Below are positions 2,251 through 31,700 of a DNA stretch of 64,000 nucleotides, one piece after another. Source of the stretch: Burkholderia sp. MS389 (GTDB lineage Bacteria > Pseudomonadota > Gammaproteobacteria > Burkholderiales > Burkholderiaceae); NCBI RefSeq assembly GCF_016899425.1, contig NZ_CP045995.1, positions 2,666,001-2,730,000 on the forward strand, read 5' to 3'. Position numbers and translations under genes: made by a program. Below the pieces are notes generated by a model that saw only the letters and a list, made by a program, of their open reading frames with translations, had not been told where the DNA came from and did not search any database. Position 1 is the stretch's first letter. Every line of letters starts with the position of its first letter.

Positions 2251-2400
2251 ACCCTTGACGTCCTCCTCCGCCTAAAGGCGGAAGATTCCCACACCTGGCG
2301 ATGCACGTCCGCATCGGAGAATGTTCAGCGCAGCGTTGGTATCTCGATCATGCTCGACACCACAGTCACTGCAGGTCCACTCTCTTATTCTCAGTCCCGC
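2251..2400 (-). ncRNA. Candidate omega-RNA region at the right end of copy A
   Basis: In characterised TnpB elements the guide RNA scaffold overlaps the 3' end of tnpB and runs to the right end, with the guide taken from host DNA just outside. Here the corresponding stretch contains the hairpin TCCGCCT-AA-AGGCGGA at 2267-2282 and the conserved tail that reads AGGAGGACGTCAAGGGT on the minus strand. The guide would then come from the wspC-tnpB junction below position 2251. The upstream limit is a guess; only the terminal hairpin and tail are directly visible. Confidence 0.35.
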
Positions 2401-3324
2401 GATACCTTTCGGCCGCGTCGTGCTGGCTTGCGACCCGCACGCCGAACAGGACTGGGTCGAACCGCTTTCGTCGACTTCCTCGAACGTGACTCCGTGCGCG
2501 ATCGCTTTGTAGCGGAGCTTGTTTCGGAAGGACGACCAGGACGCGTCGTAGACGCTCTTCGCCATCCTGGTTCTGGCAAGTTTGACGGCAGATACGTTGC
2601 CGACCGCGATGTAATCGAAGCGCCACACCAGCTCGAGCGCGAGCTTGTGCTGGAAATCGGCTCGGGCGTTCGCGACCTTGGCGTGCAGCTTCGCGATATG
2701 TCGCTTGTGCTTTCGTGCTCGCTGCGCTTTCGCCAGCTTTTCCGCCGCTCGTCGACCGAACTGGTCATTGGGCAGCTTCTCGCCCGTCGAAAGTGTGGCG
2801 AAGTCTTTCAAGCCGAGATCGATGCCGACGCCGGAACGGATCGGGCGGGCCTGAACATCGGGTATCTCGATCACGATGTTGAGAAACCAGTTGCCACGCG
2901 CATCCTGCGCAAAGTTGGTTCCATCCCTGATCTTGCCTTCGGGAAGCGTTCGGCTGTTGAACACGCGAAACGTGTTGCCAGCGAAACGGAACGCGTCACC
3001 CTCGCGCTTCAGGTCACGGCCCTTCAGCGGCACCCAGCCCAGCGATTTCCTGCCGCGATAGCGCAGGTAGGGCCGACGGTGCTGGCTGCGCGACTTCGCG
3101 TATTGCTCGCACGTCGCGTTGACCGTGCCGGAATGGATGCCAAGCGCCTTGCTGCTCCCCGTCGTCAGCACGTTCAGATCGAATCCCGTCGGCCACTTCT
3201 TGCCCCACTTGAGCGCGTGCTTCTGCGTGTCGTTGCAGAAGTTCCAGACGTAGTTCACCGCACGGCTCTGCTTGTTGAGCAGTCCGTTGAGCGACTTCAC
3301 CCGGTAGCGGTAGACAAGGATCAT
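2272..3324 (-). CDS. tnpB: TnpB RNA-guided nuclease-like protein, copy A
   Basis: A 350-residue IS605 OrfB/TnpB protein. RuvC motif I is GIDLG with Asp169; the zinc ribbon is CSACG (Cys293, Cys296) with CSDCG (Cys318, Cys321); RuvC III is HDRDTNAA (Asp326/Asp328). The usual second catalytic glutamate in the IVxEDLN-like strand is replaced: the strand reads YIAVGNVS with Gly242. A glutamate occurs 44 residues later in EVDES (Glu286), resembling the rearranged site described for Fanzors and a TnpB subset. The stop TAG lies in the loop of the right-end hairpin. About 16 residue differences separate it from copy B. Known TnpB proteins cut DNA using an omega-RNA from the element's right end. Confidence 0.92.
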   Translation of the reverse strand: MILVYRYRVKSLNGLLNKQSRAVNYVWNFCNDTQKHALKWGKKWPTGFDLNVLTTGSSKALGIHSGTVNATCEQYAKSRSQHRRPYLRYRGRKSLGWVPLKGRDLKREGDAFRFAGNTFRVFNSRTLPEGKIRDGTNFAQDARGNWFLNIVIEIPDVQARPIRSGVGIDLGLKDFATLSTGEKLPNDQFGRRAAEKLAKAQRARKHKRHIAKLHAKVANARADFQHKLALELVWRFDYIAVGNVSAVKLARTRMAKSVYDASWSSFRNKLRYKAIAHGVTFEEVDESGSTQSCSACGSQASTTRPKGIAGLRIREWTCSDCGVEHDRDTNAALNILRCGRASPGVGIFRL

Positions 3325-3378
3325 GCCGGTGATCCTAACTCGTGGAAGAAGCTGCCTGTCAACAGCACGCCTTTCCTT

Positions 3379-3396
3379 CCCGCCATCAATGGCGGG
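3379..3396 (-). repeat. Left-end subterminal hairpin of tnpB element copy A
   Basis: CCCGCCA / TGGCGGG form a 7-bp stem with a TCAA loop, 8-12 nt inside the left end. Copy B has a hairpin in the same place with a different stem sequence (31083-31102). Such imperfect hairpins are the TnpA recognition sites of IS200/IS605 elements. Confidence 0.7.
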
Positions 3397-3416
3397 GTCT
3401 CTCGGAGAAAATTCTG

Positions 3417-4127
3417 ATGAACCGCGCCGCTGCCACTGACGACGCGACGCTCGACGTCGACGATTGCTGGAACCGGATCGGCACGCGCGGCGACCGCTCG
3501 TGCGAGCGGCTGAACGACTGCCTGCGCTGCCTGAACTGCCCGGTCTACGCGTCGCACGCGGCGAAGCTGCTCGAGCGTCCGCTCGACGTGGCCGAGATGG
3601 CGGACGTCACGCGCCGTATGAGTGCGCTCGGCACGGCGCGCGCGGGCGACGACGACGGCGATACGCGCCATGCGGCGCTCGCGTTCCGGGTGGCCGACGA
3701 ATGGCTCGCGCTGCCGATCGGCGTGCTGCGCGAGATCGCCGGCACGCGCCCGATCCACTCGCTGCCGTATCGCCGCCATTCGGCCGTGCGCGGCGTGGTC
3801 AACATCCGCGGCACGCTGCGCATCGCGATCTCGATCGGCGCGCTGCTCGGCCTCGATGCCGGCAAGGCCGGCAACGGCGGGGGCGGAGGCGACGGCCGTT
3901 TCACGCGGCTGCTGGTGGCCGCGCATCAGGGCGAACCGGTCGTGTTTCCGGTCGACGAAGTCGAGGGCGTGCTGCGCTTCGGCGCGTCCGACTGGGTGCC
4001 GGTGCCTGCGACGGTCGGGCGCGCGAGCGCCGGCCTGTCGCGCGGCGTGCTGTCGTGGCGCGGCAAGTCGGTGGGGCTGCTCGACGACGATCGTCTGTTC
4101 GATGCCGTGACGCGGAGCATGCGATGA
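3417..4127 (+). CDS. wspD: CheW-family coupling protein WspD
   Basis: A 236-residue second CheW protein of the Wsp complex. It opens with the cysteine-rich stretch CWNRIG...CERLNDCLRCLNCPVY characteristic of WspD N-termini, followed by a CheW domain (about residues 75-235; FRVADEWLALPIGVLRE and VRGVVNIRGTLRIAI). The ATG at 3417 is chosen because it has GGAG 9 nt upstream and because upstream in-frame codons lie inside the transposable element. The element end directly abuts this ribosome-binding site, so translation should persist while transcription from wspA-C may be affected. The stop overlaps the wspE ATG. Confidence 0.9.
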   Translation: MNRAAATDDATLDVDDCWNRIGTRGDRSCERLNDCLRCLNCPVYASHAAKLLERPLDVAEMADVTRRMSALGTARAGDDDGDTRHAALAFRVADEWLALPIGVLREIAGTRPIHSLPYRRHSAVRGVVNIRGTLRIAISIGALLGLDAGKAGNGGGGGDGRFTRLLVAAHQGEPVVFPVDEVEGVLRFGASDWVPVPATVGRASAGLSRGVLSWRGKSVGLLDDDRLFDAVTRSMR

Positions 4128-6439
4128 GCGGCGATGACGACCTGAGCCACCTGTCGCTGCTCGAGCTGTATCGCGAGGAGACGCGTACGCAGACCCAGGC
4201 GCTGTCGGAGCGGCTGCTCGCGCTCGAATCGGGCGAGCCCGATTCCGTCGCGCTCGAGGCGTGCATGCGCGCCGCGCATTCGCTGAAGGGCGCCGCGCGC
4301 ATCGTCGGCGTGCCGCTCGGCGTCGAGATCGCCGGGCGGATGGAGGAATGCTTCGTCGCCGCGCAGGCCGGCACGATCGCACTGACGGCCACGCACGTCG
4401 ACGTACTGCTGGCCGGCGTCGATTTGCTGGTGCGCGTCGGCGATCCGCAGGGGCAACCCGTGTCGCAGGCCGAGATCGACGTGTTCGCGGCGGCGCTGAC
4501 GGGCGCCGACGGCGCGCAGACGATGCAGGCGCCGGCCGCCGTGCCGCCGCCGGTGCCGATGCCGCCGTCGTTCGTGCCGTATCGCGATCACGACGGCGCC
4601 GCGAACGAGCCGGTCGGCGCGAGCGCCGCGGTGCCGCCGCTCGCCGTGTCGAGCCCGGTGCCCGATCCGGTCCAGGCCGGCCGGGTGGCGGGCGCCGGCG
4701 CGATGCGCCGCGTGCGCGCCGATACGCTGAACCGGCTGCTGAGCCTGTCCGGCGAATCGCTGGTCGAATCGCGCTGGCTCAAGCCGTTCGCCGAATCGAT
4801 GCTGCGCGTGAAGCGCGCGCAGCGCGACGCGGCCCGTTCGCTCGACCTGATGGTCGAGCAGTTCGCCGACGAGCTCGACGACGGCATGCTCGCGTCGATG
4901 AACGAAGTGCGGCACATGCTCAACGACCTGCAGCGCTCGCTCGCCGAGCGCATGGACGAATTCGACCGCTTCGAGCGGCGCAGCACGCATATCGCCGAGC
5001 AGCTGTACGACGAGGCGCTGCAGTGCCGGATGCGGCCGTTCGGCGACGCGACGCGCGCGTATCCGCGCATCGTCCGCGATCTCGCGCGCTCGCTCGGCAA
5101 GCAGGTGCGTTTCTCGATCGTCGGCGAAGGCACGCAGGTCGATCGCGACATCCTCGACCTGCTCGACGCGCCGCTCGGCCACCTGCTGCGCAACGCGATC
5201 GACCATGGCGTCGATTCGCCCGACGCGCGGCGCGCGCGCGGCAAGCCGGCCGAGGCGAGCGTCACGCTCGAGGCGCGCCACAGCGCCGGCTCGCTGCTCG
5301 TCAGCGTGATCGACGACGGGCCGGGCGTCGACATGGACGCGCTGCGCGCGGCCGTCGTGCGCCAGCGCCTGACCGACGACGAGACGGCCGCGCGGCTGTC
5401 CGACCCCGAACTGCTCGAATTCCTGCTGCTGCCGGGCTTCTCGATGCGCGATGCGGTGACCGACGTATCGGGGCGCGGCGTCGGCCTCGACGCGGTGCAG
5501 GAGATGGTGCGCGGCGTGCGCGGCGCGGTGCGGATCTTCAACGAGCCGGGCGCCGGCATGCGCTTCGTGCTGCAGTTGCCGCTCACGCTGTCGGTGATCC
5601 GCAGCCTGCTCGTCGAGGTCGGCGGCGAGCCGTATGCGTTCCCGCTCGCCCACGTGCGCCGCACGCTCGAGCTTTCGCACGACGACATCGACGTGCTCGA
5701 AGGGCAGCCGCATTTTCCGTTCGACGGCCGGCGCGCGGGCCTCGTCGCCGCGCACCAGCTGCTCGACGCGGGCGAACCCGACGTGACCCGTGCCAGCACG
5801 GCGGTCGTGGTCGTCGGCGCCGAACCCGAGCTGTACGGCGTCGCGGTCGACCGCTTCCTCGGCGAACGGATGCTCGTCGTGCAGCCGCTCGACAGCCGCC
5901 TGCACAAGATCCAGAACATCGCGGCCGGCGCGTTGCTCGAGAACGGCGACCCGGTGCTGATCGTCGACGTCGAGGACCTGATCCGCTCGGTCGACAAGCT
6001 CGTGCGCGGCGGCCAGCTCGCGCGGGTCACGCGCGATCCGCAGCTCGCGCTGGCCGACCGGCGCCGCCGCGTGCTCGTCGTCGACGATTCGCTGACGGTG
6101 CGCGAGCTCGAACGCAAGCTGCTGGAAAAGCGCGGCTACGACGTGACGGTCGCGGTCGACGGGATGGAAGGGTGGAACGCGGTGCGCAGCGATGCGTTCG
6201 ATCTCGTCGTGACCGACGTCGACATGCCGCGCATGGACGGGATCGAACTCGTCACGCTGATCAAGGGCGACCCGATGCTCAAGCGGGTGCCGGTGATGAT
6301 CGTGTCGTACAAGGATCGCGACGAGGATCGCCGCCGCGGGCTCGATGCCGGCGCCGACTACTACCTCGCGAAGAGCAGCTTTCACGACGAAGCGCTGCTC
6401 GACGCCGTGCACGACCTGATCGGGGACGCACGCGCATGA
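4124..6439 (+). CDS. wspE: Hybrid CheA histidine kinase with receiver domain, WspE
   Basis: A 771-residue kinase of the Wsp pathway. Order: Hpt domain with phospho-accepting His52 in AHSLKGAAR; a Pro/Ala linker (about 125-185); dimerisation helices; HATPase with HLLRNAIDHG, DDGPGVD and GRGVGLD; a CheW-like regulatory domain; and a C-terminal receiver with VVDDS and the phospho-acceptor Asp in VVTDVDMPRMDG. In Pseudomonas WspE phosphorylates WspR (a diguanylate cyclase) and WspF. No WspR gene follows here, so the output partner must be encoded elsewhere. The start overlaps the wspD stop (ATGA) and the end overlaps wspF. Confidence 0.93.
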   Translation: MSGDDDLSHLSLLELYREETRTQTQALSERLLALESGEPDSVALEACMRAAHSLKGAARIVGVPLGVEIAGRMEECFVAAQAGTIALTATHVDVLLAGVDLLVRVGDPQGQPVSQAEIDVFAAALTGADGAQTMQAPAAVPPPVPMPPSFVPYRDHDGAANEPVGASAAVPPLAVSSPVPDPVQAGRVAGAGAMRRVRADTLNRLLSLSGESLVESRWLKPFAESMLRVKRAQRDAARSLDLMVEQFADELDDGMLASMNEVRHMLNDLQRSLAERMDEFDRFERRSTHIAEQLYDEALQCRMRPFGDATRAYPRIVRDLARSLGKQVRFSIVGEGTQVDRDILDLLDAPLGHLLRNAIDHGVDSPDARRARGKPAEASVTLEARHSAGSLLVSVIDDGPGVDMDALRAAVVRQRLTDDETAARLSDPELLEFLLLPGFSMRDAVTDVSGRGVGLDAVQEMVRGVRGAVRIFNEPGAGMRFVLQLPLTLSVIRSLLVEVGGEPYAFPLAHVRRTLELSHDDIDVLEGQPHFPFDGRRAGLVAAHQLLDAGEPDVTRASTAVVVVGAEPELYGVAVDRFLGERMLVVQPLDSRLHKIQNIAAGALLENGDPVLIVDVEDLIRSVDKLVRGGQLARVTRDPQLALADRRRRVLVVDDSLTVRELERKLLEKRGYDVTVAVDGMEGWNAVRSDAFDLVVTDVDMPRMDGIELVTLIKGDPMLKRVPVMIVSYKDRDEDRRRGLDAGADYYLAKSSFHDEALLDAVHDLIGDARA

Positions 6440-7455
6440 ACATCGGCATCGTCAACGACCTGCCGCTGGCCGTCGAGGCGCTGCGCCGCGTGATCGCGCT
6501 GCGCGCGGACCATCGCGTGCTGTGGGTCGCGACCGACGGCGACGAGGCGGTGGATTTCTGCGTCGCGCATCCGCCCGACGTCGTGCTGATGGATCTCGTG
6601 ATGCCGAAGGTCGACGGCGTCGCCGCGACGCGCCGGATCATGGCGCGCGCGCCGTGCGCGATCCTGATCGTGACGGCGAGCGTCAGCGCGAACACGTCGT
6701 CGGTGTACGAGGCGATGGGCGCCGGCGCGCTCGACGCGGTCGATACGCCGACGCTCGCGCTCGGGCTGTCGACCGACGCGTCGCCGCAGGCGCTGCTCGC
6801 GAAGATCGACCAGATCGGCCGGCTGCTCGAAAGCCGCAGCGCGGCACTCGTGCCGCCGGGGCCGACGCCCGCGCGCGGACAGCCGACGCTCGTCGCGATC
6901 GGCGCGTCGGCGGGCGGGCCGACCGCGCTCACCGCGCTGCTGCGCGCGCTGCCGGCGGATTTTCCGGCCGCGATCGTGATCGTCCAGCACGTCGACCAGG
7001 CCTTCGCGTACGGGATGGCCGAATGGCTCGACGGCTATACGCGGCTGCCGGTGCGCGTCGCGCGGCAGGGCAGCATGCCGGAAGCCGGCACGGTGCTGCT
7101 CGCGGCGACCAACGACCATCTGATGCTGTCGCCGCGCGGTGTGCTCGGCTATACGCGGCATCCGGTCGAAACGCCGTACCGGCCGTCGATCGACGTGTTC
7201 TTCAACAGCGTCGCGGACGGCTGGCAGGGTGACGCGCTAGGCGTGCTGCTGACGGGCATGGGACGCGACGGCGCGCTCGGCCTGAAGGCGATGCGGGCGA
7301 AGGGCTGCTACACGATCGCGCAGGACGAGGCGACCAGCGCCGTGTACGGGATGCCGAAGGCGGCCGCGGCGGTCGGCGCGGCGTCGGCGATCCTGCCGCT
7401 CGAACAGATCGCGCCGCAGTTGATCGCGCGGATCGCGCTCGCGCCGCGCGACTGA
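6436..7455 (+). CDS. wspF: CheB-type receptor methylesterase WspF
   Basis: A 339-residue response-regulator methylesterase that removes methyl groups from WspA and damps signalling. The receiver holds the phospho-acceptor Asp53 in LMDLVMPK; the C-terminal esterase has the catalytic Ser in GASAGGPTA, His in VQHVDQ and Asp in LLTGMGRDGA. It is the last gene of the visible operon. Loss of WspF in other species locks the pathway on and gives wrinkly colonies. Downstream there is no GGDEF gene but a fluoride riboswitch unit on the same strand. Confidence 0.93.
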   Translation: MNIGIVNDLPLAVEALRRVIALRADHRVLWVATDGDEAVDFCVAHPPDVVLMDLVMPKVDGVAATRRIMARAPCAILIVTASVSANTSSVYEAMGAGALDAVDTPTLALGLSTDASPQALLAKIDQIGRLLESRSAALVPPGPTPARGQPTLVAIGASAGGPTALTALLRALPADFPAAIVIVQHVDQAFAYGMAEWLDGYTRLPVRVARQGSMPEAGTVLLAATNDHLMLSPRGVLGYTRHPVETPYRPSIDVFFNSVADGWQGDALGVLLTGMGRDGALGLKAMRAKGCYTIAQDEATSAVYGMPKAAAAVGAASAILPLEQIAPQLIARIALAPRD

Positions 7456-7540
7456 CCGCGCATCGGGCAGGCGCCGTCGTTGCGTGGTGCGCCGGCGCTG
7501 CATTGCATGCGTGGCGCGGCGTCGCGTACAATTGCGGCCT

Positions 7541-7635
7541 GCGGAGATGGCATGCCTCCCTGCGGTCGTTCCCGGCGCGTGGCGCGCGGTGCGGCCCTCA
7601 ACCGCCGGTTTGCCCGGCTGATGATGCCTGCGTGT
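7541..7635 (+). promoter_or_regulatory. Fluoride riboswitch (crcB motif)
   Basis: The stretch starts GGAGATGGCATGCCTCC, continues through a variable GC-rich arm, then AACCGCC and GGCTGATGATGCCTGCG. These are the recognised conserved blocks of the crcB/fluoride riboswitch, including the pseudoknot-forming GGCAT...ATGCC pairing and the GCTGATGATGCCT 3' block. It lies 80 nt before a CLC-type channel gene, a known target of this riboswitch. Fluoride binding should turn expression on. I judged this by motif memory, not by a covariance model. Confidence 0.88.
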
Positions 7636-7716
7636 TCCTGGGTCGTCAGGAGGTCGCAGGCCGTCCATCCGGTATTCTGCCGCCCAGGTTTTGATGTTCT
7701 GTCGAATCTGGAAATC

Positions 7717-8958
7717 ATGTTCTTCACCACTTCTGCCGATCTTTTCGCGACCGTGCGCTACGTGTGGCGCTGGCTCGCGCTTTCCGCGCTGCTCGGCGCG
7801 CTCGCCGGCACGGCTTCCGCGCTGTTCCTGATCGCGCTCGACTGGGCGACCGGTACGCGCGTTGCGCATCCGTGGCTGCTGTGGGGGCTGCCGGCCGCCG
7901 GTTTCGCGACCGGCTGGGTCTACCATCGCTTCGGCCAGTCGGTCGCGCGCGGCAACAACCTGCTGATCGACGAGATTCACGACCCGAAGGCGCTCGTGCC
8001 GAAGCGGATGGCGCCGCTCGTGCTCGTCGCGACCGTCGTCACGCACCTGTTCGGCGGGTCGGCCGGCCGCGAGGGCACGGCCGTGCAGATGGGCGGCGCG
8101 CTCGCCGATCGCGTCACGCACCTGTTTCGGCTTGATCGCGAGCATCGCCGCGTGCTGCTGATGGGCGGCATCGCGGCCGGCTTCGCGTCGGTGTTCGGCA
8201 CGCCGCTCGCGGGCGCCGTGTTCGGGCTCGAGGTGCTCGCGATCGGGCGCGTGCGGTACGACGCGCTGCTGACCTGCGTCGCGTCGGCGATCGTCGCGGA
8301 CGTCGTGTGCCGCGCGTGGGGCGTCCATCACACGGCCTATGCGATTCCGTTCGTGCCGGCCGTATCGGCGACCGGGCTGGCCGTGACGGTCGTTGCGGGC
8401 ATCGCGTTCGGCGTGGTCGGGCGGCTGTTCGCGTTCGCGACGCATGCGCTGACCGCGTGGTTTCGCCGCGTGATCCGCTATGCGCCGCTGCAGCCGGTGC
8501 TCGGCGGCCTGCTGGTTGCGGTGGCCGCGACCGTGCTGAACGTGCCGCAGTATCTCGGCCTCGGCATCCCGACGATCGAGGCCGCGTTTCACGGCCCGCT
8601 GCCGCTTTACGATTTCGCGGGGAAGTTCGCGTTCACCGTCGTCACGCTCGCGTCGGGGTTCAAGGGCGGCGAGGTGACGCCGCTGTTCTACATCGGCGCG
8701 ACGCTCGGCAATGCGCTCGGCCAGGTCCTGGCGCTGCCGGTGCCCGTGCTCGCGGGGCTCGGCTTCGTCGCGGTGTTCGCGGGCGCGGCGAACACGCCGA
8801 TCGCGTCGACGATCATGGCGATCGAACTGTTCGGCGCGGATATCGGCGTGTATGCGATCGTCGCCTGTGTCGTCGCGTATCTGTTTTCCGGGCACGCGGG
8901 GATTTATCGCGCGCAGCGCGTGGCGGTGGGGAAGGGGGCGCGGGTGGAGGCGGAGTGA
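7717..8958 (+). CDS. CLC-type fluoride/proton antiporter (CLC-F)
   Basis: A 413-residue CLC membrane protein, shorter than the roughly 470-residue CLC-ec1 chloride exchanger and in the size range of CLC-F exporters. The selectivity region reads GGSAGREGTAVQMGG, with the gating glutamate in GREGT, followed by the GTPLAGAVFGLE and GFKGGEVTPLFYIGA signatures. About ten hydrophobic segments are present. The ATG at 7717 is chosen because earlier in-frame codons fall inside the riboswitch. Role: expulsion of cytoplasmic fluoride; the riboswitch upstream supports fluoride rather than chloride as substrate. Confidence 0.88.
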   Translation: MFFTTSADLFATVRYVWRWLALSALLGALAGTASALFLIALDWATGTRVAHPWLLWGLPAAGFATGWVYHRFGQSVARGNNLLIDEIHDPKALVPKRMAPLVLVATVVTHLFGGSAGREGTAVQMGGALADRVTHLFRLDREHRRVLLMGGIAAGFASVFGTPLAGAVFGLEVLAIGRVRYDALLTCVASAIVADVVCRAWGVHHTAYAIPFVPAVSATGLAVTVVAGIAFGVVGRLFAFATHALTAWFRRVIRYAPLQPVLGGLLVAVAATVLNVPQYLGLGIPTIEAAFHGPLPLYDFAGKFAFTVVTLASGFKGGEVTPLFYIGATLGNALGQVLALPVPVLAGLGFVAVFAGAANTPIASTIMAIELFGADIGVYAIVACVVAYLFSGHAGIYRAQRVAVGKGARVEAE

Positions 8959-9035
8959 GGTGGGGGGCGCGGTCGATGTCGTTCGATCGCGGCGGCGCGA
9001 TGCGATACCCGGGACGCTAAAAAGAGAGGCATCCA

Positions 9036-9620: not shown

Positions 9621-9638
9621 CACGCGCTTAATCAGCCT

Positions 9639-13797: not shown

Positions 13798-13817
13798 GCG
13801 CCGGGCGGGATCGACGA

Positions 13818-21700: not shown

Positions 21701-21742
21701 CTGCCGGGAAGCGAACGCGGCGCGAGGCCGCGTGCCGGATCG

Positions 21743-22327: not shown

Positions 22328-22391
22328 GGCGTTTCTCCTTCGTTGTCTGATGGGTGACGGGCGAGGCGGGCGGCGGTACACGCCGCCCCGT

Positions 22392-23063: not shown

Positions 23064-24947
23064 CTACTCGACGCCCGGTCGAGGCGCACGATTCGTGCCT
23101 GATGCCGGCTGCGGGCCGGTATCGTTCAGTGCGACGTCGATGACGACGGGATCGTGGTCCGACGAGCGGTAGGCGTCCGGTGCGTAATAAGCCGACCGTC
23201 GCGTGCGCGTTTTGTAATCGGGCACGGATTGCAGCGCGACCGGTTCGTCCGCATTGATGTGCCAGAACCGCACGGCCTTCACGCGCGCGGCGAGCGGCGG
23301 CGTGGCGAGCGCGTGGTCGAGATTGCCGGCTTCGCCGCGAAATACGTAGCTGTACGCAGCATCGCCGACGAAGTGCGCAACCAGGTTCGCGTAGCCGCGC
23401 GCTTCGAGCGTGCGGACCGGGTCTTCCTTTGCATAACTGTTCAGATCGCCGATCAGCAGCACGCCGTCGGCCGCGACGCCCGTCGGCGACGTGGCGAGCC
23501 AGTCGGCGACGCGTGCGGCCGCCCGCGTGCGCGCCGCGTTCCAGCAGCCCTGGCCGTCCGACTGGTCGAGATCGGCGCCGCTCGCGTGCGGGCAGTTCTT
23601 CGACTTCAGGTGATTGACCGCGACCGTGAACGCACGCGTGCCGCCGATGCGCCGGAACGTCTGCGCGAGCGGCGGGCGGTGTCGGCCGCCGAGCGAGACG
23701 GTGGCGGCGCGCCCGACCGGCTCGATCGTGCGGCTGTCGTACAGCAGCGCGACCGCGATCGCGTCGCGGCCCAGGCGCGCGGTGCCGGGATCGACCGCGC
23801 GCCAGCCGTCGCCGAGTTGCGCGGCGAGCCGACGGATGGCGCTCGCGTCGCCGTGGCCGTTGTTCGCGATTTCCATCAGCCCGATCACGTCGGCGCGCAG
23901 CGCGCGCAACGCCGCGACGATCTTCGCTTCCTGCCGCGCGAACGCGGCGGGCGTTTTCGCGCCGCGGTTGGCCGGCGCGTCGAATCCGCCGCCACGGCCG
24001 TCGCCGTTGAAATAGTTGAAGACGTTGAACGACACGATGCGCACGTCGGCATCGGGATGCCGGGCCGGCGCCGCGGTGCGCGCGTTCGCGGCGGCATTGA
24101 ATACGGGCGCCGCGCCGGCCACCGGTTGCAGCCGCCATGTACCGTAGCGCAACTCGAGCACGCCTTCGACGCCGCGTACCGTGTAGCCCGCGCGCAGCGT
24201 GTTGGCGGCGTTCAGCGCGGGCGGCGGATAGCGGACGGTCGCCGGGTCGCGGCGGTTCGAACCGTCGTCGAGCACGAGGCGATTCAATGCGTTGGCCGCT
24301 GCCTGCGCGGCAGCGTCGGCCGGCGGCGCGACCTGGGTCGGCACGCGCAGCCGGCCGTTGCTCAGCACGATGCTGCCGTAGCGGCCGAGTTCGTAGGTAT
24401 CGCTGACCGTCAGCGTTTGCGGCAGGCGTACGCGCATGGCTTCGTGCGCGGCGAGGACGGCGGGCGACGCAACCGGCAGCGCGAGCGCGGCCGGCGTGAC
24501 CGTCTGCCCGCGTGCGCAGACGGCCACGCGGCCCGACAGCGTGAGCTGCGTCCGGCCGTATTTCTCGTCGACCTTGCCGGTCAGACGCACGAGATCGCCG
24601 GGTTCTGCGCGCGCATTCGGTGCGTAGACGAACAGGCCTTCCGGAACGCCCGGCCGGTGTTGCCGTTGCGCGTCGGCCTGCTGGACGAAGAAGCCGCCGA
24701 GGCCGTCTGCGCCGCCGAACGCCGCGGTGACGACCGCTTCGATCGACGTCGTTTGCCCGGCGAGCCGCGACGGACCGCCGGCGCGGCGGATCTCGGCGAT
24801 CGCCGTGGCGGGGCCGCCGCAACCGCTGCCGACCGGCAGCGCGGCGGGGGGCGGCCGCGCGCAGAAGGCCACGGACAGCACGGCGGACAACACGACGAAC
24901 AGCGCGACGAACAGCGCGACGGCAAGCAGGGGGAGCGGGCGTGACAT
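23064..24947 (-). CDS. Secreted endonuclease/exonuclease/phosphatase family nuclease (ExeM/NucH-like)
   Basis: A 627-residue exported protein. It has an N-terminal signal or anchor helix (about 4-29), an OB-fold-like domain (about 55-290), and a C-terminal endonuclease/exonuclease/phosphatase domain. Catalytic landmarks in the latter are RIVSFNVFNYF, DVIGLMEIANNG (metal-binding Glu), VNHLKSKN, LIGDLNSY and the closing SSDHDPVVIDV (catalytic His). Cysteines in KNCP and GQGCW match the paired cysteines of extracellular nucleases. Likely role: degradation of extracellular DNA, in biofilm turnover or phosphate scavenging. Regulation is unknown. Confidence 0.9.
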   Translation of the reverse strand: MSRPLPLLAVALFVALFVVLSAVLSVAFCARPPPAALPVGSGCGGPATAIAEIRRAGGPSRLAGQTTSIEAVVTAAFGGADGLGGFFVQQADAQRQHRPGVPEGLFVYAPNARAEPGDLVRLTGKVDEKYGRTQLTLSGRVAVCARGQTVTPAALALPVASPAVLAAHEAMRVRLPQTLTVSDTYELGRYGSIVLSNGRLRVPTQVAPPADAAAQAAANALNRLVLDDGSNRRDPATVRYPPPALNAANTLRAGYTVRGVEGVLELRYGTWRLQPVAGAAPVFNAAANARTAAPARHPDADVRIVSFNVFNYFNGDGRGGGFDAPANRGAKTPAAFARQEAKIVAALRALRADVIGLMEIANNGHGDASAIRRLAAQLGDGWRAVDPGTARLGRDAIAVALLYDSRTIEPVGRAATVSLGGRHRPPLAQTFRRIGGTRAFTVAVNHLKSKNCPHASGADLDQSDGQGCWNAARTRAAARVADWLATSPTGVAADGVLLIGDLNSYAKEDPVRTLEARGYANLVAHFVGDAAYSYVFRGEAGNLDHALATPPLAARVKAVRFWHINADEPVALQSVPDYKTRTRRSAYYAPDAYRSSDHDPVVIDVALNDTGPQPASGTNRAPRPGVE

Positions 24948-25153
24948 GGGACGGTCCACAGGATGAAAATCCGACAGTTCGGGACCGCATCTTGAAGGCA
25001 AAATGTCAGGCTGCGGCCGAAATGGCCGTTCGGCCATTGCCGGTTGGCCAACGATGCGGCAAGCCGCCCCGCGGCTGTTACGCTTTCGCACCGGGCGTCG
25101 TGTGCCGCTCGGCCGCTGCATGTCGCCGCACCCCGTTCCCACAGGAGAAATCC

Positions 25154-25507
25154 ATGTCTTACATGCTGTTGATTGTCGAACCGACCGAGCAGCGCGTCGA
25201 GCGCACGCTCGACGAAGGCCAGGCGCTCTATGCGCGGATGGTCGATTTCGCCGAGTCGCTGAAGGCGCGCGGCGTGCTGCGCGGCGTCGAGTCGCTGGAA
25301 CGGTCCGAGCGCGGCACGCGCGTGCAGGTGCGCGACGGCGAGACGCGTCTGCTCGACGGGCCGTTCGCGGAGGCGAAGGAGATGGTCGGCGGCTTCTTCC
25401 TCGTCGACGTCGACACGCGCGAGGAAGCGATCGAAATCGCGCGCCAGTGCCCGGCCGCGCAATGGTGCACGGTCGAGGTGCGCGCGGTCGGCCCGTGCTT
25501 TCTGTGA
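25154..25507 (+). CDS. YCII-related (DGPF) protein 1
   Basis: A 117-residue single-domain protein of the YCII/DGPF family. It has the opening MSYMLLIVEPTE and the hallmark LLDGPFAEAKEMVGGFFLVD segment. It begins a same-strand run of four genes: this one, a second YCII gene, a VOC gene and an ECF sigma factor. Such genes cluster with ECF42-type sigma factors in many bacteria and may be targets or modulators. The biochemical function is unknown. GGAGAAATCC precedes the ATG. Confidence 0.9.
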   Translation: MSYMLLIVEPTEQRVERTLDEGQALYARMVDFAESLKARGVLRGVESLERSERGTRVQVRDGETRLLDGPFAEAKEMVGGFFLVDVDTREEAIEIARQCPAAQWCTVEVRAVGPCFL

Positions 25508-25632
25508 GCGTCGCGACTCGGTATTTACCCTGATTTGTCGTGGCGCGTGTCGATCCGGCCGTCTTCCGCCCGTCGTCCGGGTAAGGCGCCACGGAACGGG
25601 CGCCGCTTTCCACCGACGACAAGGAGTGAACG

Positions 25633-26052
25633 ATGCGATTCATGATCATGATCCGGGCGAATGCCGTCAGCGAATCCGACGCGTTGCCGGACAACCGGCT
25701 GGTCGAGGCGATGACGGTCTATCACGAGGAACTGGCGAAGGCCGGCGTGCTGCTCGACGCCAACGGCCTGAGGCCGAGCGCCCACGGCTGGCGCGTGCGC
25801 TACACGGGCGGCAAGGGCACGGTGATCGACGGCCCGTTCGCCGAAACGAAGGAACTGATCGCCGGCTACACGCTGATCCAGGTGCGCTCGCGCGACGAGG
25901 CGCTCGAATGGACGCGCCGGTTCCCCGCGCCGTTCGGCGCCGAGCTCGATTGCGAGATCGAGGTGCGGCCGCTGTTCGAGCTCGACGACCTGACGCCGAG
26001 CGACGCGGTCGAGCGGTTCCGCGATCTCCACGTCGGCCGCAGCCACGCCTGA
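25633..26052 (+). CDS. YCII-related (DGPF) protein 2
   Basis: A 139-residue YCII protein with MRFMIMIRAN at the start and VIDGPFAETKELIAGYTLI as the DGPF motif. It differs enough from the neighbouring paralogue that a recent duplication is unlikely. AAGGAG lies 7 nt before the ATG. The 125-nt gap before it could contain a separate promoter responding to the sigma factor encoded downstream. Confidence 0.9.
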   Translation: MRFMIMIRANAVSESDALPDNRLVEAMTVYHEELAKAGVLLDANGLRPSAHGWRVRYTGGKGTVIDGPFAETKELIAGYTLIQVRSRDEALEWTRRFPAPFGAELDCEIEVRPLFELDDLTPSDAVERFRDLHVGRSHA

Positions 26053-26078
26053 ATCCAATCTCACCGGGAGCACCCGTC

Positions 26079-26495
26079 ATGCACAAGATGGTTTTCATCA
26101 ACCTGCCGGTAGCCGACCTGCCGCGCGCGAAGACGTTCTACCAGGCGCTCGGCTTCGAGGTCGTGCCGGCCTATACCAACGAGCAGGCCGCCTGCATCAA
26201 GATCAGCGATGCGATCTTCGCGATGCTGCTCGTGCGGCCGTTTTTCCAGACCTTCACCGACAAGACCATCATCGATCCGGCGACGCACATCCAGGTGCTG
26301 TCGTGCCTGTCGTGCGATAGCCGCGCCGAAGTCGACACGCTCGTCGCGAAGGCGCTGGCGGCCGGCGGGGCCGCGCCGCAGGCGCCGCGCGAGTACCCTA
26401 ACATGTACGGCCACGGGTTCACCGATCCGGACGGCCACACGTGGGAACTGATGGCCATGCCGCTGGAGGCGTCCGCCCAGGGGCAGGCGTCGTGA
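26079..26495 (+). CDS. VOC-family (glyoxalase-like) protein
   Basis: A 138-residue vicinal-oxygen-chelate protein. Two beta-alpha-beta-beta-beta units are suggested by MVFINLPVADLPRAKTFYQALGF and the C-terminal GHGFTDPDGHTWELM, which supplies a metal-ligand-like Glu. Relatives act on antibiotics, glutathione adducts or have no known substrate. Its TGA overlaps the GTG start of the sigma factor gene, so the two are translationally coupled and likely act in one response. Confidence 0.88.
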   Translation: MHKMVFINLPVADLPRAKTFYQALGFEVVPAYTNEQAACIKISDAIFAMLLVRPFFQTFTDKTIIDPATHIQVLSCLSCDSRAEVDTLVAKALAAGGAAPQAPREYPNMYGHGFTDPDGHTWELMAMPLEASAQGQAS

Positions 26496-27760
26496 CGCAT
26501 GAGGCGACGCATCGTGCGATCGAAGCGGTCTGGCGAATCGAGGCGCCGAAGATCATCGCGCGCGCCGCGCGCGTGGTGCGCGACGTCGGCGTGGCCGAGG
26601 AACTGGCGCAGGACACGCTCGTCGCGGCGCTCGAGCACTGGCCCGTCGACGGCGTGCCCGACAACCCGGCCGCCTGGCTGATGACGGCCGTGAAGCGTCG
26701 CGCGCTCGACCGGGTCCGGCAGGAGTCGCTTCATTCGGCCAAGCGCGACCAGCTTGGCCACGAGATGGACGCGCTCGAAGCGCACGTCGTCCCCGACATC
26801 GCCGATGCGCTCGCCGACGCGCGCGACGACGACATCGGCGACGATCTGCTGCGGCTGATCTTCACGTCGTGCCACCCGGTGCTGTCGACCGACGCGCGCG
26901 TCGCGCTAACGCTGCGGCTGCTCGGCGGGCTGACGACGGGCGAGATCGCGCGCGCATTCCTGACGCCGGAGCCGACGATCGCGCAGCGGATCGTGCGCGC
27001 GAAGCGCACGCTCGCGGCCGCGCACGTGCCGTTCGAGGTGCCGGCCGCCGATGCGCGGCCCGCGCGGCTCGCGTCGGTGCTCGAAGTGATCTATCTCGTG
27101 TTCAACGAAGGCCATGCGGCGACGGCGGGCGACGACTGGATGCGCCCGGCGCTGTGCGACGAGGCGTTGCGGCTCGGCCGCGTGCTGGCCGGCCTCGCGC
27201 CGGACGAAAGCGAAGTGCTCGGGCTCGTCGCGCTGATGGAGTTGCAGGCGTCGCGCATGCATGCCCGCGTCGACGCGCAGGGCCGGCCCGTGCTGCTGCT
27301 CGACCAGGACCGCAGCCGCTGGGATCCGTTGCTGATCCGGCGCGGCCTCGCGGCGCTGGAGCGGGCGACGAAGCTCGGCGGCGTGCGCGGGCCGTATGCG
27401 CTGCAGGCCGCGCTTGCCGCGTGCCACGCGCGGGCGCGGCACGCGGCGGACACGGATTGGGCGCAGATCGTCGCGCTGTATGACGCGCTCGCCGAAGTCG
27501 CGCCGTCGCCGGTCGTCGAGCTGAATCGCGCGGTCGCGGTGGGGATGGCGTTCGGGCCGGCCGCCGCGCTCGAACTCGTCGACGTGCTGCGCGACGATCC
27601 GGCGCTCGCGCGCTATCACTGGCTGCCGAGCGTGCGCGGCGATCTGCTCGCGAAGCTCGGCCGCGCCGACGAGGCGAAGCTGGAATTCCGCCGCGCGGCG
27701 GAACTGACGCGCAACGAGCGTGAGCGCGAATTGCTGCTGAAGCGCGCGATGGATGCGTGA
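26492..27760 (+). CDS. ECF sigma factor with long C-terminal extension (ECF42-like)
   Basis: A 422-residue extracytoplasmic-function sigma factor starting at GTG. Region 2 carries VAEELAQDTLVAALEHWP and the NPAAWLMTAVKRRALDRVR helix; region 4 carries LGGLTTGEIARAFLTPEPTIAQRIVRAK. A roughly 200-residue helical, TPR-like extension follows, as in ECF42 proteins, which lack a linked anti-sigma factor and neighbour DGPF genes. Both traits hold here: two DGPF genes upstream and no anti-sigma gene. It probably drives transcription of the YCII genes in its own operon. Confidence 0.9.
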   Translation: MTHEATHRAIEAVWRIEAPKIIARAARVVRDVGVAEELAQDTLVAALEHWPVDGVPDNPAAWLMTAVKRRALDRVRQESLHSAKRDQLGHEMDALEAHVVPDIADALADARDDDIGDDLLRLIFTSCHPVLSTDARVALTLRLLGGLTTGEIARAFLTPEPTIAQRIVRAKRTLAAAHVPFEVPAADARPARLASVLEVIYLVFNEGHAATAGDDWMRPALCDEALRLGRVLAGLAPDESEVLGLVALMELQASRMHARVDAQGRPVLLLDQDRSRWDPLLIRRGLAALERATKLGGVRGPYALQAALAACHARARHAADTDWAQIVALYDALAEVAPSPVVELNRAVAVGMAFGPAAALELVDVLRDDPALARYHWLPSVRGDLLAKLGRADEAKLEFRRAAELTRNERERELLLKRAMDA

Positions 27761-27804
27761 CGCGTGACGAGCGCGGCGCCGCCGCGCACCGCACACTACC
27801 CGCC

Positions 27805-27838
27805 GTCCCGTCCCGTCCCGTCCCGTCCCGTCCCGTCC
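27805..27838. repeat. Pentanucleotide tandem repeat (GTCCC, about 6.8 copies)
   Basis: Six perfect GTCCC units and a partial seventh lie in the 289-bp gap between the sigma factor gene and rubrerythrin. They are outside any supported gene. Copy number may vary by slippage between strains and could affect the rubrerythrin promoter region. Confidence 0.8.
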
Positions 27839-28049
27839 GCTCCCGCGCACCGCATGGCGCCCGTCTTCCCGCCATCCGCCGCACACCGCCCCCCGACACT
27901 ATCGCCCGCATTGAAAAAGCCTATTGGGGGATGCGAACGCGAGCGCCTAGATTGAAGAGCACGACGCGCGCCCGGCGCACGCATCGTTCCCCACATATCT
28001 GATCGGCCCGGCGTCGCACGCGGCCGCGCCGACTCGAACGGAGGCGCAA

Positions 28050-28472
28050 ATGGCTCAACTCAAGGGCAGCAAGACCGAAGAGAACCTGAAGGCCGCATTC
28101 GCGGGCGAATCGCAGGCGAATCGGCGCTATCTGTATTTCGCGTCGAAGGCCGACGTCGAGGGGCAGAACGACGTCGCCGCGCTGTTCCGCTCGACCGCCG
28201 AAGGCGAAACCGGTCATGCGCACGGCCATCTCGAATACCTGGAAACCGTCGGCGATCCGGCCACGGGCCTGCCGTTCGGTTCGTCGCGGCTGAATCTCGA
28301 ATCGGCGATCGCTGGCGAAACGCACGAATACACCGACATGTATCCGGGCATGGCGAAAACCGCGCGCGACGAGGGGTTCGACGAAATCGCGAACTGGTTC
28401 GAGACGCTCGCGAAGGCCGAACGCAGCCACGCGAACCGCTACACGAAGGCGCTGGACAGTCTCGTCGACTGA
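28050..28472 (+). CDS. Rubrerythrin-family diiron protein (no rubredoxin domain)
   Basis: A 140-residue four-helix ferritin-like protein with diiron ligands in [32 protein letters not shown] and [12 protein letters not shown]. The C-terminal rubredoxin domain of classical rubrerythrin is absent, which is the short form. Role: reduction of hydrogen peroxide with electrons from a partner. The following Fe-S oxidoreductase gene, 122 nt downstream, is a likely partner. GGAGG lies 8 nt before the ATG. Confidence 0.92.
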
Positions 28473-28594
28473 CGGGCCGCCGCGGGCCGCCCGGCATCGC
28501 CGTGCGACCGGCACGCGGCCGGCTGTTCGTTCATCGCCGCCCGCATCGTGCGGGCGGTGCGCTTGCGCACATGCGCGCCATGCGGGAGCGCCCC

Positions 28595-29932
28595 ATGCCC
28601 CACAAGGAAGGCAGTCTCGAAGCGCCGACCCGGCATCCGCTCGACTGGCAGTCCGAAGCGTTCTACGACCAGGCCGAGATCGATGCGGAAATGACCCGCG
28701 TATTCGACATCTGCGCCGGCTGCCGGCGCTGCGTGTCGCTGTGCGGCGCGTTTCCGGCGCTGTTCGACCTGGTCGACGACACGCCGATGGGCGACGTCGA
28801 GGACGTGCCGAAGGAAGCATTCGGCAAGGTCGTCGACCAGTGCTATCTGTGCGACCTCTGCTACATGACGAAATGCCCGTACGTGCCGCCGCATGCATGG
28901 AACGTCGACTTCCCGCACCTGATGTTGCGCGGCAAGGCCGCGCGTTACAAGCGCGGCGAAGCGACGCTGCGCGACAAGGTGCTGTCGAATACCGATGCGC
29001 TCGGCCATTTCGCCGGCATTCCGGTCGTCACGCAGACGATCAACGCGGTGAACCGCACGCCGCCCGCGCGGCACGCGCTCGAAGCGGCGCTCGGCGTCGA
29101 TCGCCATGCGTGGCTGCCGGAGTTCGCGCCGCGCACGTTCCGGCGCGCAGCCGAGCGCTCGGCGAACCCGCCCGTGCGCGACGGCGAACGCACGCCCGGC
29201 AAGGTCGCGATCTACGCGACGTGCTACGTGAATTTCAACGAGCCGGGGATCGGCCACGACCTGCTCGCGATCCTCGCGCACAACGAGATCCCGTACGAAC
29301 TCGTCACGCGCGAAGCGTGCTGCGGGATGCCGCTGCTGGAGCAAGGCAACCTCGCCGGCGTCGCCGCGAAGCAGGCGGTGAACATCCCGGTGCTCGAACG
29401 CTACGCACGTGAAGGCTATGCGCTGATCGGCGCGATCCCGAGCTGCGTGCTGATGTACAAGAGCGAGCTGCCGCTGATGTTTCCCGCCGACCCGGCCGTG
29501 CGCGCGGTGGCCGACGCGTTCTGGGACCCGTTCGAATACGTGATCGCGCGCCATCGCGACGGGCTGCTGAAGACCGATTTCAAGACCGGCCTCGGCAGTG
29601 TGTCGTATCACGTGCCGTGCCATGCGCGCGTGCAGAACATCGGCCGCAAGACGGCCGATGCGCTGTCGCTCGTGCCCGATACGCGCGTGACCGTCGTCGA
29701 GCGTTGCTCGGGCCACGCGGGCACGTTCGGCGTGAAGAAGGAATTTCATGCGGACGCGATGCGGATCGGCACGCCGGTGTTCAAGGCGATGGCCGAGCCG
29801 CGGCCGGACGTCGTGTCGTCCGACTGCGCGCTCGCCGGCCATCACATCGTGCAGGGCATCGACGAGAACGGGCTGCCGCCGGCGCCGCTCGCGCATCCGC
29901 TGACGCTGCTGCGGCGCGCGTACGGCATCTGA
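28595..29932 (+). CDS. Heterodisulfide-reductase-like Fe-S oxidoreductase
   Basis: A 445-residue protein with two N-terminal 4Fe-4S motifs (CAGCRRCVSLCG and CYLCDLCYMTKCP) and two C-terminal cysteine-rich CCG-type domains (CYVNFNEP...ACCGMPLL and VPCHARVQ...ERCSGHAG). This is the GlpC/HdrD layout, suggesting electron transfer from a soluble or quinone donor. Standing next to rubrerythrin and DUF3501 it is probably the electron supplier for peroxide reduction. The ATG at 28595 is the best of several in-frame starts, as earlier ones lie in Arg-rich sequence. The DUF3501 gene that should follow is separated by a tnpB element. Confidence 0.88.
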   Translation: MPHKEGSLEAPTRHPLDWQSEAFYDQAEIDAEMTRVFDICAGCRRCVSLCGAFPALFDLVDDTPMGDVEDVPKEAFGKVVDQCYLCDLCYMTKCPYVPPHAWNVDFPHLMLRGKAARYKRGEATLRDKVLSNTDALGHFAGIPVVTQTINAVNRTPPARHALEAALGVDRHAWLPEFAPRTFRRAAERSANPPVRDGERTPGKVAIYATCYVNFNEPGIGHDLLAILAHNEIPYELVTREACCGMPLLEQGNLAGVAAKQAVNIPVLERYAREGYALIGAIPSCVLMYKSELPLMFPADPAVRAVADAFWDPFEYVIARHRDGLLKTDFKTGLGSVSYHVPCHARVQNIGRKTADALSLVPDTRVTVVERCSGHAGTFGVKKEFHADAMRIGTPVFKAMAEPRPDVVSSDCALAGHHIVQGIDENGLPPAPLAHPLTLLRRAYGI

Positions 29933-29946
29933 GCGGCGGCCGGCCA

Positions 29947-31029
29947 TCACGAGGACACCCTTGACGTCCTCCTCTCCCTAAAGGGAAGGATTCCCACACC
30001 TGGCGATGCACGTCCGCATCGGAGAATGTTCAACGCAGCGTTGGTATCTCGATCATGCTCGGCACCACAGTCACTGCAGGCCCACTCTCTTATTCGCAGT
30101 CCCGCGATACCTTTCGGCCGCGTCGTGCTGTCTTTCGATCCGCACGCCGAACAGGACTGGGTCGAACCGCTTTCGTCGACTTCCTCGAACGTGGCCCCGT
30201 GCGCCATCGCTTTGTAACGGAGCTTGTTTCGGAAGGACGACCAGGACGCGTCGTAGACGCTTTTCGCCATCCTGGTCCTGGCGAGTTTGGTTGCCGACAC
30301 GTTGCCGACCGCGATGTAATCGAAACGCCGCACCAGATCGAGCGCGAGCTTATGCTGGAAGTCGGCACGCGCATTCGCGACCTTGGCGTGCAGCTTCGCG
30401 ATATGTCGCTTGTGCTTTCGTGCTCGCTGCGCTTTCGCCAGCTTTTCCGCCGCGCGTCGACCGAACTGGTCATTGGGCAGTTTCTCGCCGGTCGAAAGTG
30501 TGGCGAAGTCTTTCAGGCCGAGATCGATGCCGACACCAGAACGGATCGGACGAGCCTGAACATCCGGCATCTCGATCACGATGTTGAGAAACCAGTTGCC
30601 GCGCGCATCCTGTGCAAAGTTGGTCCCATCCTTGATCTTGCCTTCGGGAAGCGGTCGACTGTTAAACACCCGAAAAGTATTGCCGGCAAAGCGAAACGCG
30701 TCGCCTTCGCGCTTCAGGTCGCGGCCCTTCAGCGGCACCCAGCCCAGCGATTTCCTGCCGCGATAGCGCAGGTAGGGCCGACGGTGCTGGCTGCCCGACT
30801 TCGCATATTGCTCGCATGTTGCGTTGATCGTGCCGGAGTGAATACCGAGTTCCTTGCTGCTGCCGGTTGTCAGCACGTTCAGGTCGAATCCTGTAGGCCA
30901 CTTCTTGCTCCACTTGAGCGCGTGCTTCTGCGTGTCGTTGCAGAAGTTCCAGACGTAGTTCACCGCACGGCTCTGCTTGTTGAGCAGTCCGTTGAGCGAT
31001 TTCACCCGGTAGCGGTAGACAAGGATCAT
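29947..31029 (-). CDS. tnpB: TnpB RNA-guided nuclease-like protein, copy B
   Basis: A 360-residue protein about 95% identical (counted by eye) to copy A, with the same RuvC Asp in GIDLG, the same Gly in YIAVGNVS in place of the usual Glu, the same EVDES glutamate 44 residues on, the zinc ribbon and the DRDTN motif. Changes in the right-end hairpin shift the reading frame compared with copy A. Translation therefore continues through the element end and stops at a TGA (29947-29949) in host DNA, adding a tail that ends RTSRVSS. It appears intact. Confidence 0.9.
   Translation of the reverse strand: MILVYRYRVKSLNGLLNKQSRAVNYVWNFCNDTQKHALKWSKKWPTGFDLNVLTTGSSKELGIHSGTINATCEQYAKSGSQHRRPYLRYRGRKSLGWVPLKGRDLKREGDAFRFAGNTFRVFNSRPLPEGKIKDGTNFAQDARGNWFLNIVIEMPDVQARPIRSGVGIDLGLKDFATLSTGEKLPNDQFGRRAAEKLAKAQRARKHKRHIAKLHAKVANARADFQHKLALDLVRRFDYIAVGNVSATKLARTRMAKSVYDASWSSFRNKLRYKAMAHGATFEEVDESGSTQSCSACGSKDSTTRPKGIAGLRIREWACSDCGAEHDRDTNAALNILRCGRASPGVGILPFRERRTSRVSS
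29957..30100 (-). ncRNA. Candidate omega-RNA region at the right end of copy B
   Basis: It covers the 3' part of tnpB, the hairpin at 29975-29986 and the conserved terminal sequence, by analogy with characterised TnpB systems. The guide would derive from host DNA below 29957, at the end of the Fe-S oxidoreductase gene. The 5' limit is not visible. Confidence 0.35.
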
Positions 31030-31082
31030 GCCGGTGATCCTAACCCGTGGAAGAAGCTGCCTGTCAACAGCACGCCTTTCCT

Positions 31083-31102
31083 CCCCGTCCTGAAGGACGG
31101 GG
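31083..31102 (-). repeat. Left-end subterminal hairpin of tnpB element copy B
   Basis: CCCCGTCC (31083-31090) and GGACGGGG (31095-31102) form an 8-bp stem with loop TGAA. The stem differs in sequence from that of copy A but pairing is kept. Confidence 0.7.
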
Positions 31103-31118
31103 TTTCTCGGAGCAACTG

Positions 31119-31700
31119 ATGACGCTGACCCGCGACTCCCTGCTGACGCTCGAAGCGTACGCGAAGATCCGCAAGGCCGAACACGCGCGACTCGTCGCGT
31201 ACAAGCGCCGCCGCGCGGTGGCGCTCGGCAACCACCTGCGTTTTCTGTTCGAGGACGAGACGACGATCCGTTATCAGATCCACGAGATGCTGCATATCGA
31301 GAAGATCTTCGACGAAGCCGGCATCGAAGGGGAACTGGAAGCGTATCTGCCGCTGGTGCCCGACGGCACCAACCTGAAGGCGACGATGCAGATCGAGTAC
31401 GAGCACGAGATCGAACGGCGCGCGGCGCTCGCGCGGCTGATCGGTGTCGAGGATCGCGTGTACCTGCGGGTCGACGGGCACGCGAGCGTCTACGCGATCG
31501 CCGACGAGGATCTCGAGCGCGACAACGCGGAGAAGACGTCGGCCGTGCACTTCGTCCGCTTCGAGTTCGATGCGCCGATGCGCGCGGCGCTCAAGGGCGG
31601 GGCGGCGCTGTCGATCGGCTGCGATCATCCGGCCTACACGATGCCCGCGCAGCGCATCGACGCGGACGTGACCGCGTCGCTGGCAGGCGATCTGCGCTAG
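31119..31700 (+). CDS. DUF3501 family protein
   Basis: A 193-residue soluble protein of the DUF3501 family (opening MTLTRDSLLTLEAYA; KRRRAVALGNHLRFLFED; RVDGH). Members are typically found beside rubrerythrin and a heterodisulfide-reductase-like protein, the same trio as here, so it is probably part of that peroxide-defence unit. No catalytic motif is known to me. The ATG at 31119 is chosen because GGAG lies 6 nt upstream; further upstream the frame runs into the transposable element. Separation from its operon by the element may change its expression. Confidence 0.87.
   Translation: MTLTRDSLLTLEAYAKIRKAEHARLVAYKRRRAVALGNHLRFLFEDETTIRYQIHEMLHIEKIFDEAGIEGELEAYLPLVPDGTNLKATMQIEYEHEIERRAALARLIGVEDRVYLRVDGHASVYAIADEDLERDNAEKTSAVHFVRFEFDAPMRAALKGGAALSIGCDHPAYTMPAQRIDADVTASLAGDLR

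Follow-up and report, generated by a model that had tools for sequence, protein, structure and literature searches.

Mobile DNA can spare the genes of its host by avoiding them or, where it enters a tRNA gene, by reconstituting the gene's end. In IStrons, insertions are made harmless by a self-splicing group I intron (PMC4227781, in the excerpt available). Insertion of IS200/IS605-type elements takes place on the 3' side of a short motif and duplicates no target; in ISDra2 this motif also serves TnpB as its target-adjacent motif (TAM), and members of the group with an isolated tnpB exist (PMC8612924, available part). Site recognition relies on a short guide at the foot of a hairpin (PMC7290912, in excerpt), and TnpB/Fanzor proteins are described in which an alternative RuvC-II glutamate lies six residues before the zinc finger (PMC10711439, in excerpt). 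Here we describe two tnpB elements, copies A and B, from a 64,000-nucleotide stretch of the Burkholderia sp. MS389 genome (NZ_CP045995.1, positions 2,666,001 to 2,730,000; hereafter the window). They belong to a family that tends to sit exactly before host start codons, and a substitute ribosome-binding site in the element end probably allows insertion without silencing the gene. We put at about 80% the probability that the elements belong to the IS200/IS605 superfamily, carry tnpB alone and are adapted to start codons through a ribosome-binding site of their own.

Target and empty sites

The MS389 genome holds 13 tnpB matches; 12 of the proteins are 93-100% identical to that of copy A, and the remaining one is 38% identical. 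The 12 elements are 1158-1189 bp long and contain tnpB only. Their left ends follow the pattern TCAT/CAG(AAT)TTKCTCC (the slash marks the element boundary), which in tnpB orientation reads TCAT/CAGTTGCTCC in five copies and TCAT/CAGAATTTKCTCC in seven, and in host orientation GGAGCAACTG/ATGA or GGAGMAAATTCTG/ATGA. Because the 12 aligned copies share sequence through CTCC right up to the start codon, CTCC lies within the element and is not its target. The initial annotation had let the similarity stop right after CTCGGAG and had taken CTCC for the target; comparison of A and B alone loses the left-end similarity because the two belong to different spacer classes. The target proves to be TCAT, in most cases YTCAT, which reads as a start codon (ATGAR) on the opposite strand, and it is the element that brings the Shine-Dalgarno (SD) sequence. 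YTCAT is found at 11 of the 12 copies, copy B having GTCAT.

The same target was seen across the genus. A search of 65 Burkholderia genomes, MS389 included, gave 112 matches in 34 of them, and 101 were used after 11 partial or decayed ones had been left out. TCAT stands at the left-end anchor in 91 of the 101 copies, with a spacer to CTCC of 6 nt in 37, 9 nt in 53 and 3 nt in one. CTCC is exact in 82 of the 91, a count that leans upward because the search anchor itself includes CTCC, with 4 changes allowed. The left flanks of these 91 copies amount to 81 distinct 12-mers. The base before TCAT (T 67, C 14, G 5, A 5) is skewed relative to 218 ATGA starts of the genome (79, 27, 61 and 51; p = 6e-10), which identifies YTCAT as the preferred target; the nine positions beyond it hold at most 0.16 bits each. 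A subclass of copies (L008, L021, L027, L049, L057, L059 and others; L numbers denote loci) has a longer hairpin region at the left end, with CCATTTCCCCCAAGGGGACTTCCTTCGGGGCGGATGG in most.

The starts of the genes downstream of four MS389 insertions were compared with the 65 genomes, and the sequence before each start was read at 30, 30, 20 and 20 loci, out of 64, 59, 60 and 63 genomes with a match. At the CheW (wspD) site 3 of 30 loci are occupied and 27 empty (one locus, L154, came out shifted by three bases and was judged by eye), at the DUF3501 site 2 are occupied and 28 empty, and at the L003 and L011 sites one of 20 is occupied in each case; two of the four sites are occupied in two or three species. 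In the closest empty relatives at all four loci the right-end flank of the MS389 element joins ATG with no base lost or gained, as in ATCGGAGACTCC/element/ATGAAAAACCTG against the empty ATCGGAGACTCC/ATGAAAAACTTG. Examples of empty sites are CCAGAGGAATTC/ATGAACCGC and CACGAGGACATCC/ATGACG, with the native SD on the right-end side. From these exact joins it follows that the element is CAG...GTCAA, that no target is duplicated and that the native leader is parted from its start codon. At the four sites the native SD lies beyond the far end of the element, and the element's own GGAG stands 6 or 9 nt before ATG. The native leader of the L011 site (TTTTCGCAGAC/ATG) has no obvious SD. The empty sites were also checked for an SD at the left-end junction, which a CTCC target would leave there; it is lacking at all four, which rules that target out at these sites. 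Nor does removal of the element restore a left-end GGAG, as had been supposed, since the SD of real empty sites is on the other side.

Copy A (1162 bp, 2255..3416, minus strand) runs from the right end TTGACGTC... at 2255 to the left end ...CTG at 3416, and its flanks agree to the base with those of unoccupied sites elsewhere in the genus. Its tnpB (2272..3324, minus strand, 350 aa) belongs to the RNA-guided nuclease family (NF040570, 221.8 bits, cut-off 100; Pfam OrfB_IS605 and Cas12f1-like_TNB). The GGAG core (3404..3407, plus strand) lies 9 nt before the ATG at 3417 and is missing from this junction at all 27 empty loci among the 30 read for the wspD site; ATGA (3417..3420, plus strand), complementary to the target TCAT, starts the CheW-domain gene. 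The native leader with its SD (AGAGGAACCC, 2245..2254, plus strand) is now 1.16 kb from its gene. In empty relatives an AGAGGA-type leader directly precedes ATG, and the letters of L148 are identical. Copy B (1158 bp, 29961..31118, minus strand) likewise has flanks that match empty sites exactly. Its tnpB frame (29947..31029, minus strand, 360 aa; NF040570 216.7 bits, cut-off 100) extends 14 bp beyond the right end. Here GGAG (31109..31112, plus strand) is 6 nt before the ATG at 31119, and ATGA (31119..31122, plus strand), again the complement of TCAT, starts the DUF3501 gene. The native leader with SD (GAGGACACCC, 29951..29960, plus strand) has likewise moved 1.16 kb from its gene, GAGGACATCC standing directly before ATG in empty relatives. 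Both copies are real, antisense to the host operon and abut a start codon, and in these points, as in the 9- and 6-nt distances of GGAG, the initial annotation was borne out. Its gene names also fit the Pfam domains on either side, CheR and CheW for A, Fe-S/CCG and DUF3501 for B, "wsp" being its own label.

Gene starts and the carried Shine-Dalgarno sequence

Copies and a null set of 1894 ATGA sites, taken from 20 stretches of 20 kb (400 kb) of the MS389 genome, were sorted by the same start caller, a codon-usage classifier. L101 was dropped for want of a right end, leaving 90 copies, of which 66 were called starts, 21 other and 3 inside genes; the corresponding numbers in the null set are 264, 647 and 983 (starts, 66/90 vs 264/1894, p = 4e-37). 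With sites within genes excluded the ratio is 66:21 against 264:647 (odds ratio 7.7), an excess over plain purifying selection that is less certain than the p value because the null's "other" class probably has misjudged genic sites in it. A stricter version of the classifier gave 63/90 and 218/1894. In seven uncalled copies (L008, L058, L063, L065, L073, L077, L089) Pfam domains fit a real start, which would make it 73/90. Annotated features that might confirm the start codons were sought in the relevant stretch of three Burkholderia plasmid records, and none were present there.

The energy with which the 20 nt upstream of ATG pair with the tail of 16S rRNA has a median of -5.8 kcal/mol at the 90 element ends and -4.75 at the right-end flanks, the expected place of the native SD, against -3.3 at the 264 ATGA starts of the genome and -2.6 at 1630 other ATGA sites. 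GGAG occurs within 18 nt of ATG in 81 of 90 element ends, and GGAG, AGGA or GAGG within that distance in 44 of 90 native flanks. The CAG at the element tip and the start codon (CTG/ATGA) together form TGATG, a potential stop-start overlap.

Downstream genes gave dN/dS values of 0.08-0.44 in ten pairs with long genes. Two further pairs, whose frames have just 27 and 23 codons, gave 0.99 and 0.94; L012/L046, which is one of them, shares a flank 12-mer but not the gene. Copies at the same site are 0.875-0.946 identical and are mutual nearest relatives in one of 12 pairs (L090/L091). Purifying selection as a proof of expression was set aside, as neither shared descent nor the age of same-site copies is established.

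Outside the genus 40 of 51 loci could be anchored, with TCAT in 39 and YTCAT in 34; L215 and L227 appear to be one site found in two genomes, as do L221 and L222. The spacers are of 8 nt (16 copies), 6 nt (14) and 9 nt (9), Of the 39, 32 have CTCC and 30 are followed by a frame of 60 codons or more, judged by length alone, some frames having poor codon scores. The hosts include Paraburkholderia, Cupriavidus, Alcaligenaceae, Malikia and Oxalobacteraceae, and protein identity goes down to 66%. In L240/L310 (Polynucleobacter, 68%) TTTCAT is followed by different letters, in which, by eye, the host strand again has an SD-like AGGAA. A group of relatives at about 40% identity, from a different family of the class (genomes G706, G817, G820 and others), has the same end layout and a TTAT target. 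Of its 30 loci, several of which stem from one genome, 18 left ends were anchored, and 16 of these were flagged TTAT (one, L354, looks spurious); CTCC occurs in one of the 18 (L342), beside the target and out of register. As the best natural control, this group ties the SD to the start-codon target. The left ends of L367-L370, TnpBs from two plasmids and two phages at 40-46% identity, were not resolved by eye. Several Comamonadaceae-like and Alcaligenaceae copies (L302, L303, L305, L306, L308 and others) carry before tnpB, overlapping or abutting it within the element, a small open reading frame that by eye resembles a ribbon-helix-helix protein.

TnpB, transposase source and other features of the window

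The TnpB protein lacks the canonical RuvC-II glutamate (G242) and has an alternative one, E286, six residues before the zinc finger; D169, E286 and D328 are invariant in nine aligned TnpB sequences. Because E286 is present the RuvC nuclease triad looks intact, and the notion of a nuclease-dead TnpB was dropped once this residue had been seen. Y1 hits above 40 bits occur in 8 of the 65 genus genomes, and 6 of these 8 also belong to the 34 that carry the element. We infer that mobilisation took place in trans and has perhaps now ended. A relative with both tnpA and tnpB was found on a contig of a Candidatus Competibacteraceae metagenome-assembled genome (L312); it has the same kind of left end, TTCAT/CAGGATTCTCC, where no long frame starts at TCAT and one opens a few codons downstream. 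The tnpA-bearing element at L185 has a similar right end, its left end and target not being resolved by eye. Nearly every genome of the genus has, usually once, a gene with a Y1_Tnp match of only 22-23 bits in a frame some 257-283 aa long (as at G000:C1:415448-415738, L015), unlike the strong TnpA hits and possibly a domesticated or REP-associated transposase.

Folded as single-stranded DNA, all four ends of A and B form a hairpin, with z-scores of -2.1, -2.2 and -1.6, and of just -0.6, no better than shuffles, for the right end of B. A consensus promoter scan of both elements returned no promoter-like site; by eye, TTGACA and TTAGGAT, which that scan did not report, stand directly before tnpB (3325-3385 and 31030-31090, minus strand), and TTAGGAT, about 8 nt from the tnpB ATG, would give a nearly leaderless mRNA. 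Terminator-like matches number two in each element, against 0.9 and 1.3 in shuffles. Antisense to tnpB, on the plus strand, run long frames at 2239-3417 (392 codons) and 30055-31119 (354 codons), both stopping at a TGA that overlaps the downstream ATG; they may be due to chance in GC-rich DNA. An Rfam scan of the window at the gathering threshold showed no group I intron and listed one match, a fluoride riboswitch aptamer (RF01734, 7534-7637, plus strand), whose 35.7 bits compare with a gathering score of 34. A plus-strand frame at 32411-33367 begins, by eye, like the N-terminus of an IS5-type transposase and continues in unrelated sequence.

Competing readings and known systems

The target 5' of the left end, TCAT and mostly YTCAT, reads on the other strand ATGA(R), the first bases of many genes; because of this complementarity, an insertion there falls between the native SD and the start codon and is antisense to the gene. 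The left-end linker (CAG...CTCC; GGAG...CTG on the host strand) places an SD 6, 8 or 9 nt before ATG. In the mechanism we propose, the severed gene thereby receives a replacement ribosome-binding site. Ribosomes would use it, and this use may account for the survival of insertions at starts and the loss of others. The elements would have been moved by a Y1 TnpA acting in trans, and TnpB may still cut YTCAT-flanked empty sites with a guide read from the right flank. We further favour, with somewhat less assurance, the view that a lineage across Burkholderiales made the start codon its niche and that selection built the SD, along with the TGATG overlap, into the left end, each insertion replacing the host's ribosome-binding site. 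Where the native SD is weak, as in the L011 leader, an insertion may increase translation, and the element could then work as a scattered cassette for translational control. If correct, this would be a further way for mobile DNA to spare genes, and a simple one, consisting of a five-base target and a four-base SD. It would explain the antisense position within operons, predict which genes can host the elements, and serve as a warning that the rate of translation can be reset by a tnpB insertion.

Several points weigh against this account. No TCAT anchor was found in 10 of the 101 genus copies: L034 has TTCGT, L038 and L040 have TTCAC (the complement of GTGAA), L097 has no TCAT and six have no anchor, two of these being readable by eye as TTCAT (L103) and TTCGT (L104). 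The count of CTCC leans upward, the copies, with their 81 flanking 12-mers, are not fully independent, and the 647 "other" null sites probably contain genic ones. Twenty-four of the 90 copies were not called starts, 14 of them with a frame of at least 50 codons; five such copies have no Pfam domain, a transporter gene is interrupted by L072, and at L071 the part of the frame that bears the domain begins well downstream of the insertion. None of the 12 MS389 elements has tnpA, and that genome has just a Y1 fragment and one weak Y1-like hit. The start region is no more accessible after insertion than at ordinary starts (median unpaired probability 0.411 at 91 inserted starts, 0.425 at 264 genome ATGA starts), and the idea that insertion opens it was dropped. 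Finally, translation from the element SD, and its retention in the host gene, we infer from sequence.

The pattern might be an effect of the target only: TCAT would happen to complement ATGA, genic insertions would be purged, and CTCC would be a structural part of the left end without translational role. With no information in the left flank beyond YTCAT, nothing shows the transposase to seek starts as such, and leaders without an obvious SD, like that of the L011 site, indicate that genes may manage without one. Yet starts are also over-represented relative to the remaining non-genic sites (odds ratio 7.7, with the null's caveat), CTCC keeps its ribosome-binding distance as the linker varies between 6, 8 and 9 nt, and the TTAT-target relatives, whose ends are laid out alike, lack CTCC in register. 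We regard this explanation as unlikely. Domestication, in which the elements would have ceased to be mobile parasites, TnpB or its RNA would regulate the gene behind, and the fixed place before the start codon would serve that regulation, appears highly improbable: sites vary widely between genomes (81 distinct flanks among 91), most relatives compared are empty at the four sites, and with E286 the triad looks intact, even if the canonical glutamate is replaced (G242), two of the four sites are occupied in two or three species, and 17 of 18 copies compared have no relative closer than 0.957, so that recent movement is not visible there. To the model of the initial annotation, in which CTCC, as complement of the host SD, is the target and insertion keeps that SD beside the gene, we give practically no credence. 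GGAG does precede both start codons, but CTCC is part of the 12 MS389 copies and of 82 of 91 in the genus, and the empty sites have their SD at the right-end junction. Its idea of low-damage insertion before genes survives as to position, antisense orientation and a plausible SD left before the gene; the host SD is not kept, and the element supplies one instead.

The adaptation to start codons that we favour may be set beside what is known. Titles and opening lines of abstracts in the open literature gave no start-codon targeting or SD-bearing end for such elements, and an earlier mention is possible. ISDra2 and IS608, in the available part of their description, share short-motif insertion without target duplication, hairpins at both ends and TnpB; their targets are TTGAT and TTAC, respectively, against YTCAT here, and the present copies differ also in having no tnpA, an SD in the left-end linker and insertions concentrated at start codons (PMC8612924). 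For membership in IS200/IS605 speak motif insertion without duplication, end hairpins and a TnpB with an apparent zinc finger and RuvC triad; a Y1 TnpA is missing. The TTAT-target relatives resemble the family in left-end layout (CAG...CGTAAAACCCC), type of right end and about 40% protein identity, and differ in that ATAA, the complement of their target, is not a start codon and that none of their 18 anchored left ends has an SD in register. TldR-type regulators are nuclease-dead TnpBs with an inactivated RuvC triad; the present TnpB, with its alternative glutamate, does not conform to that type. In the position of this glutamate, six residues before the zinc finger, it is like the TnpB/Fanzor proteins that have the alternative residue; it departs from pro-Fanzors, as the excerpt presents them, in its RuvC-I motif (DLG, not DPG) and in belonging to a bacterial IS200/IS605-type element (PMC10711439). 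With IStrons, so far as the available excerpt describes them, the family shares the principle of an insertion sequence carrying something that makes insertion harmless to the host gene; there it is a group I intron, of which Rfam finds none in the window, and here a ribosome-binding site (PMC4227781).

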